Shown: positions 1 to 38,199 of the stretch, piece after piece
Layout: every line of letters starts with the position of its first letter
Numbering within the stretch: position 1 is the first letter of the stretch
NCBI GenBank assembly: GCA_003023405.1
Contig: PXST01000011.1
Coordinates: 7,650-65,678, forward strand
DNA: 58,029 bases
Source of the DNA: Halobacteriales archaeon SW_8_68_21
GTDB lineage: Archaea > Halobacteriota > Halobacteria > Halobacteriales > Haloferacaceae
Direction: 5' to 3'
The notes under the pieces: model-generated
Database searches by the model: none
Told to the model about the DNA's origin: nothing
Seen by the model: only the letters and a program-made list of their open reading frames with translations
Translations under genes and position numbers: made by a program

Positions 1-215
1 CGAAGGGGCAGCCGCGAGGGCGAAGGCGCGCGACGTAAGCACCGCAGGAGCGAACGGAGTGAGCGACGAGGAGCGCAGCGAGCGTCTGTCCACCTCGCGG
101 CTGGGGCTTCGGCGGTCTCGGTCGTGGAGTTTCGCGGCGAAAACACTCATGTACGGCCGAGCGACTGGGACTTCGGCGGTCTCGGTCGCAGCGAGTGAGC
201 GAATTACAGCGACCG
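1..215 (+). repeat. Partial dispersed structured repeat (copy A, cut by window start)
   Basis: This non-coding GC-rich stretch matches the 3' half of the element seen complete at about 37810-38185. It holds a long hairpin module whose arms (agccgcgagg near 10 and cctcgcggct near 93) enclose about 75 nt. Two tandem units follow, starting with ctggggcttcgg at 101 and ctgggacttcgg at 165, a spacing of 64. The 5' module lies outside the window. The open frame running through it into the thioredoxin gene is treated as an accident of GC bias. Confidence 0.75.
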
Positions 216-1754: not shown

Positions 1755-1965
1755 GCGGTTTACAGGACATATAAAAGTAGATTGACACAAACACTCCCGA
1801 AGCCCCAGTCGCTCGGCTGTACGTCTCTGTTTATAAGCTGCTGATCGACACAAACACTCCCGAAGCCCCAGTCGGGTCCCGCCCCGCACAGCACCTCATC
1901 CCTCCCCAGCCTCGTCGGCCTCCCTACGGTCGGCCGACTCCCTCGCGCGTGCTCCTCGGCCGCAT
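1755..1965 (-). repeat. Dispersed structured repeat (copy B)
   Basis: Read on the minus strand, this is the same element as copies A and C but without the central 100-nt hairpin module. The 5' module (about 1965-1874) has inverted arms gtcggcc (1914-1920) and ggccgac (1932-1938). Copy C has gtcggtcgcc and ggcgaccgac at the same place, so both sides of the stem have changed together. Then come two tandem units with cores at 1873 and 1810, exactly 63 bp apart, each with ctggggcttcgggagtgttt and a TTATAA-like stretch. Between 1966 and the next gene at 2259 nothing recognisable is seen apart from an AT-rich patch at 1975-2030. Confidence 0.75.
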
Positions 1966-2258
1966 AAGTTATTGGTTCCGTCACTCGATCTATTTAAATA
2001 CAGTATTGTCGTCAGTTTATTGATTCCAACAGGGCGGAAAAACCGTCGAGCCGGCGGCTCGCGAGTGTAAAGCGACCGCCGCTACGGCGCGGACGTTGAA
2101 AGGCGACCACCTCACGCGAACGCGAGACGACTGGTTTGTGTCGCACGCCGGCGGCCGGTCAAGTACATGTCGGCCGCCCCTGCTTATAAACCCTCGTTCA
2201 CGTCGCCGCGAGCCGTCCGGGGCGGTTCGGCAGCGGTTCCGCGGCTGAAAAGAGCGAC

Positions 2259-3360: not shown

Positions 3361-4769
<1,409 letters not shown>

Positions 4770-37730: not shown

Positions 37731-37809
37731 ACGCTCACCACGAGCGCGAGCGGTATAAACGGGGCGAGTACCCGACGCGCTCACCGGGGGATCGGCGACG
37801 ACTATCACT

Positions 37810-38185
37810 TATAAAAGCGGCGGTGCGGTGGCGCGTGCCTGCGAGCGGTCGCCCCCGGCGACCGCGACGCAGCACCGCGCGAGGGAGTCGGTCGCCGGAG
37901 CAACGCGGAGGCGACCGACGAGGCTGGGGAGGCGTGAGGTGCGGTCGCGGTGCTGTGGGGTGGGACTCGAAGGGGCAGTCGCGAGGACGCCAGAGGCGAC
38001 GTAAGTACCGGAAGGAGCGAGCGAAGTGAGCGACTGAGGAACGCAGCGAGCGTCTGGCGTCCTCGCGGCTGGGGCTTCGGGAGTGTTCGTGTCGATCGGT
38101 GATTTATAAGCAACTACGCACAGCCGAGCGGCTGGGGCTTCGGCAGTGTTCGTTTCGATCGGTGACTTATAAACCATCAGTCGCC
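37810..38185 (+). repeat. Dispersed structured repeat, complete copy C
   Basis: This is the longest copy. The 5' module has two nested stems: cagcaccgcg (37870-37879) with cgcggtgctg (37946-37955), and gtcggtcgcc (37887-37896) with ggcgaccgac (37910-37919). A central hairpin of about 94 nt follows, arms 37977-37991 and 38056-38070, 15 bp with one G.T pair. Two tandem 63-bp units start at 38065 and 38128, each with ctggggcttcgg and a TTATAA stretch. No protein frame with family character is present. The 469-bp gap between folP and the DUF192 gene holds only this element. Confidence 0.8.
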
Positions 38186-38199
38186 GGCCACGCAATCAT

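Follow-up and report, generated by a model that had tools for sequence, protein, structure and literature searches.

BOX elements of Streptococcus are modular intergenic repeats of about 100 copies in which the number of one module varies and which form stable stem-loops. The palindrome-associated transposable elements (PATEs) of Haloquadratum carry palindromes that match the ends of IS605-type transposons, and the SMRs of Haloquadratum are homogeneous repeats of about 110 bp that insert into other mobile elements (PMC3119063). REPs are 20-40 nt in size and are marked by tag tetranucleotides, GTAG or CGTC, and by RAYT transposases (PMC3116915, PMC2817692). Analysis of a haloarchaeal window (the whole stretch of 58,029 nt) revealed a repeat that is best read as a structured non-coding element of modular build, formerly mobile, in which selection maintains the fold of the G-rich strand.

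All three copies reported in the preliminary description were located in the sequence of the window (Table 1), and the tail-unit starts, measured again, gave the same spacings of 63 bp in copies C (38065/38128) and B (1797/1860) and 64 bp in copy A (102/166). Copy A is cut short by the assembly, its head lying upstream of the window and being interrupted by an N-run directly after which the window begins (L091). The long hairpin module said to be missing from copy B is indeed absent there, GGGACCCGACTGGGGCTTCGG standing in place of the P3 5' arm and loop, and the two P2 stems whose arms were said to have changed together are both present, with GTCGGTCGCC/GGCGACCGAC in copy C (37887-37896/37910-37919) and GTCGGCC/GGCCGAC in copy B (L091). 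Two further features were observed near copy B. The adjoining positions 2036-2165 hold a non-coding block, GAGCCGGCGGCTC...GACGTTGAAAGGCGACC...CGAGACGACTGG, which is strongly conserved in several Halorubrum species (L091-L107), gave no Rfam match beyond one weak chance hit and is a candidate structured RNA. A TnpB-type (PF07282) domain is encoded at about 4260-4451, some 2.3 kb from copy B, and the repeat is not at its borders.

Table 1. Positions of the repeat copies and of the parts of copy C in the window.
Feature	Position	Strand	Remarks
Copy A	1..215	+	P3 and two tail units
Copy B	1755..1975	-	Head with two tail units; deletion of P3 5' arm and loop
Copy C, TTATAA box upstream of head	37809..37814	+	Belongs to insert or target; restricted to Halorubrum
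Copy C, helix P0 (GGCGCGTGC..GCACCGCGC) around hairpin P1	37830..37880	+	Pairs changed on both sides
Copy C, hairpin P1 within P0	37846-37853/37857-37864	+	
Copy C, hypervariable hairpin P2 (GTCGGTCGCC/GGCGACCGAC)	37887..37919	+	
Copy C, constant G-rich linker GAGGCTGGGGAGGCGTGAGG...GGGACTCGAAGGGGC	37920..37977	+	
Copy C, long hairpin P3	37968..38079; arms 37968-37997 / 38050-38079	+	
Copy C, two tandem tail units (CTGGGGCTTCGG...TTATAA...) 63 bp apart	38065..38190	+	

On the G-rich strand, helix P0 is formed by GCGCGTGC/GCACGCGC, is extended by a strongly covarying three-pair segment and a CGAG/CGAG step, and is capped by hairpin P1. After these come the constant GCGAGGGA, hairpin P2, the constant GAGGCTGGGGAGGYGTGAGG, a G-rich linker ending in GGGYGGGACTCRAAGGGGC and the long hairpin P3, which is closed by CRAAG/CTTYG below an opposed GGG/GGG, near the hairpin base in copy C. 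The tail, like the variable module of BOX elements, differs in number, with one to seven tandem units each made up of the 3' end of P3 and a spacer; several unit types were found, and a TTATAA box is present in only some of them. The whole element spans about 270-400 nt, of which P3 alone takes about 112 nt in copy C, so that the 20-40 nt palindrome size class of REPs and REPINs was rejected. The family is built from two separable modules, the head (P0/P1, P2) and the P3 hairpin with its tail: P3 and tail modules were also found without a head, and in other genera P3 was seen singly, paired with a second P3 in divergent inverted orientation, or accompanied by an inverted head. These doublets of one palindrome have the arrangement of REPINs and are the only forms with terminal inverted repeats, the hallmark of MITEs, which were not found in the Halorubrum copies. 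Small double-hairpin repeats of roughly 70-110 bp were seen nested in P0, P2 or P3 loops of several copies from different genera (L093, L094, L096, L107, L358, L369, L170 and L184, and G016:C1 at about 541500, 634200 and 664700).

The repeat does not reflect chance, since blastn with the 376-bp query gave 61 matches in its own 2.44-Mb draft genome (G000), the best second copy at E 1.8e-78. Its occurrence in other Halorubrum genomes, mentioned in the preliminary description, was borne out in 22 of 22 relatives of the first search set, and the extent was far larger than had been claimed. A covariance model, the kind of search proposed there, was built for the head and run against genomes (E <= 1e-6), and matched 127 times in the nearly complete relative G016, a count close to a lower bound (150 candidates scored), and in 77 of 292 Halobacteria genomes belonging to 22 of 77 genera. 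Several other haloarchaeal families carry tens of copies, and in other genera the constant blocks stand in the same order with the same anatomy (P0/P1, P2, G-rich linker, P3 and tandem tails). An exact scan for GGGYGGGACTGAAAGGGGC across 84,980 species gave at least 80 loci, those listed being all haloarchaeal by title. Plasmid matches were few, two matches lay in viral contigs and none was found in the phages searched, on which grounds a plasmid or virus origin was rejected. No Rfam family matched, also when four copies were tried at E up to 0.5, and searches among open-licence papers did not find a description of the repeat.

Alignment of 73 heads revealed standard pairs in 94.2% of cells against 79.8% after shuffling, and both sides had changed in 231 cells against 64 in the shuffles, with a covariation score of 0.388 against 0.138. 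The six top covarying column pairs were all predicted pairs (6/6). Four column pairs, all of them helix pairs (4/4), exceeded the 95% maximum of a tree-based null, which consisted of alignments simulated without structure on the fitted tree in our own reimplementation and not in R-scape itself; the stems thus covary beyond phylogeny, as the preliminary description had supposed. Folding of copy C gave z values of -4.73 for the + strand and -4.08 for the - strand. Analysis of 92 distinct P3 stems from other genera showed 36 G.T against 6 A.C pairs (p 2.8e-6), the head helices showed 30 against 5, and at single positions the counts were 17 against 0 and 14 against 0. A G.T pair on one strand reads as A.C on the complementary strand, so duplex DNA would be indifferent between the two, and the excess of G.T therefore indicates folding of the G-rich strand by itself, as RNA or as DNA. 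Covariation and strand-specific wobble pairs together show that the G-rich (+) strand has a conserved fold. Tolerance of G.T would also fit a single-stranded DNA intermediate. GNA hairpin loops, which are of DNA type, accounted for 14 of 52 triloops.

Resident copies are conserved like coding positions. At four orthologous sites the columns constant in G016 were 94-97% identical between species and the remaining columns 54-65%, and in the genes beside these sites identity was 94-98% at codon positions one and two and 78-82% at position three, in a comparison in which orthologue detection favours intact copies and to which gene conversion, a process that could mimic purifying selection, could contribute. 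Orthologous sites carried differing P2 stems (10/10 at site A, 7/7 at B and 10/11 at C), and every P2 stem at these three sites retained at least five of six outer pairs. Identical P2 sequences at two sites within one genome (L105) suggest that this hairpin may be exchanged as a cassette.

Comparison of orthologous sites also showed that individual sites have gained and lost copies over species time; many species have a given site filled, in one and the same orientation, whereas others have it empty. Site C is empty in L137 and site A in L104, with only the tail left in L103; site D is filled in 11 of 18 cases, the rest including empty and decayed alleles; and G016 is without the copy of L003, its flanks there being 93% and 90% identical. 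The mobility proposed in the preliminary description is therefore upheld by filled and empty sites, and RNA, the molecule it had named, is on the sequence evidence the most likely object of selection. A search for target-site duplications gave nearly equal own and cross flank matches, and site C has TTATAA boxes on both flanks. In G013 (L129), about 900 bp of additional, AT-richer DNA with an open frame was found at site C right behind the tail. Where site C is without the repeat, mostly a different small gene is present (L122-L124, L127, L128, L130, L133, L135, L140, L143, L145-L147 and L149), and this intergenic spot is therefore an exchange hotspot.

Each 63-bp unit had been proposed to be a small transcription unit. 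This was not supported, since only 36 of 85 distinct copies have a TATA-like box within 75 nt of the start of the tail, other tail types being without one, and since copies outside Halorubrum have no conserved upstream AT box either. Within Halorubrum, the head in the filled alleles of site D is preceded, with variation, by TATTTAAA, about 33 nt, TTATAAA and about 12 nt, and such promoter-like boxes were not seen in the empty alleles. Of 45 Halorubrum copies with a TTATAA near the head, which include orthologues and are not all independent, 16 have a TTTAAA-like (TATTTAAA) box 22-42 nt upstream of it; in the genome such a box occurs at a rate of 0.0018 per 20 nt. Copies with a left box tend also to have a tail box (odds ratio 5.5, p 5e-4). 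A class-wide promoter was rejected because of the absence of the box outside Halorubrum, and a 3' UTR element because the upstream gene was in sense in just 17 of 37 copies, as judged with a gene caller made for this analysis. Gene orientation around the copies is mixed, and this, together with the missing box outside Halorubrum, indicates that a dedicated promoter is no general property of the family. Clustering of the ORFs beside the copies revealed no recurrent gene, the clusters consisting of open frames of the element itself and of genes unrelated to it.

Taken together, the non-coding element probably functions in folded form, as an RNA or a single strand, and not as inert repeat DNA. 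The fuller reading, to which we give even chances of being correct, is that of a haloarchaea-wide, high-copy, intergenic and structured family which acts as a + strand RNA, is bound by protein, spreads rarely by mobilisation in trans and exchanges its cassettes. The RNA would arise from transcription through the element, some Halorubrum copies using their own TATA-type promoter and others neighbouring promoters, and once folded would be bound by a putative protein. On rare occasions machinery acting in trans would carry copies to intergenic sites, where they would afterwards exchange hairpin cassettes with sister copies.

An element that bears palindromes and is moved by a Y1 (HUH) transposase in the form of single-stranded DNA, like PATEs and REPINs, would also show strand-specific pairing, its fold being that of one DNA strand during transposition. 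Divergent inverted P3 pairs about 25 bp apart, of which the ends AACAGCCAGAAAGCCCC/GGGGCTTTCTGGCTGTT change together, and the commonness of PATEs in Haloquadratum (PMC3119063) agree with this explanation. However, no Y1 transposase was found in G016 despite its 127 model matches, and a head was near only 3 of 37 TnpA/TnpB loci, about the chance level, so that IS605/PATE ends were rejected. The G016 chromosome moreover showed neither orientation clustering nor skew (65+/61- among 126 entered matches), and the candidate lagging-strand orientation bias was rejected, none being found along it. A purely selfish element also needs no conservation of old resident copies. We regard such a DNA transposon as unlikely, if a serious contender.

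An architectural or regulatory protein might instead bind the repeats as chromosomal DNA sites, similar to BIME or BOX elements, on whose G-rich strand a G-quadruplex/duplex hybrid could form in the potassium-rich cytoplasm. This would account for the location of all 127 G016 matches on the 2.96-Mb chromosome and of none on the second contig, for the rarity on plasmids and viruses, for the G-tracts GGGNGGGA, constant in 94 of 116 copies, and for the roughly even spread in both orientations. Duplex binding sites are not expected to show compensatory changes with strand-specific wobble, however, and site occupancy differs between species, which makes this proposal rather improbable. It is very doubtful that the repeats are mobile non-coding RNA genes spread through an RNA intermediate, a haloarchaea-wide, high-copy archaeal counterpart of SINEs with a promoter-like 5' box, structured RNA and tandem 3' tail and with no protein of its own. 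The already disfavoured view of inert, decaying repeats (dead MITEs) with structure left from an ancestral transposon fits the absence from G016 of near-identical copies of recent origin (mean identity 0.77, best pair 0.905) and the deletions and nested insertions in some copies, but is very hard to believe when 94% of cells still pair despite replaced stems and constant columns are conserved between orthologues as coding positions are.

With tens to more than 100 copies per genome in many haloarchaeal genera, each conserved individually, and with no Rfam entry and no description found, the structured family preferred here would amount to a major component of these genomes that has gone unrecognised. 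Its orthologous sites offer a natural experiment in which one locus carries, in different species, unrelated stems that all still pair. If the folded strand is RNA, an abundant and so far undescribed archaeal RNA class would be represented; if it is single-stranded DNA, a new route of spread would be indicated.

Comparison with the known systems showed that the element shares with BOX elements its modular intergenic nature, about 100 copies, variable module number and stable stem-loops, and differs in its terminal repeated module, several covarying helices, class-wide spread and occurrence in another domain of life. Like REP, BIME and REPIN sequences it contains high-copy extragenic palindromes, its P3 module being found singly and as inverted doublets, but it has a multi-helix head and does not need a RAYT-type Y1 gene. 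The inverted P3 doublets resemble SMR-A, which has inverted terminal repeats without a known transposon, and the nested small double-hairpin repeats resemble it also and may be its counterpart (PMC3119063). PATEs are likewise haloarchaeal, non-coding, palindromic, present in many copies and targets of small nested repeats, and they lack terminal inverted repeats as the Halorubrum copies do (PMC3119063); unlike them, the present element has palindromes that do not border TnpA/TnpB loci, is abundant in a Y1-free genome and is conserved across families.
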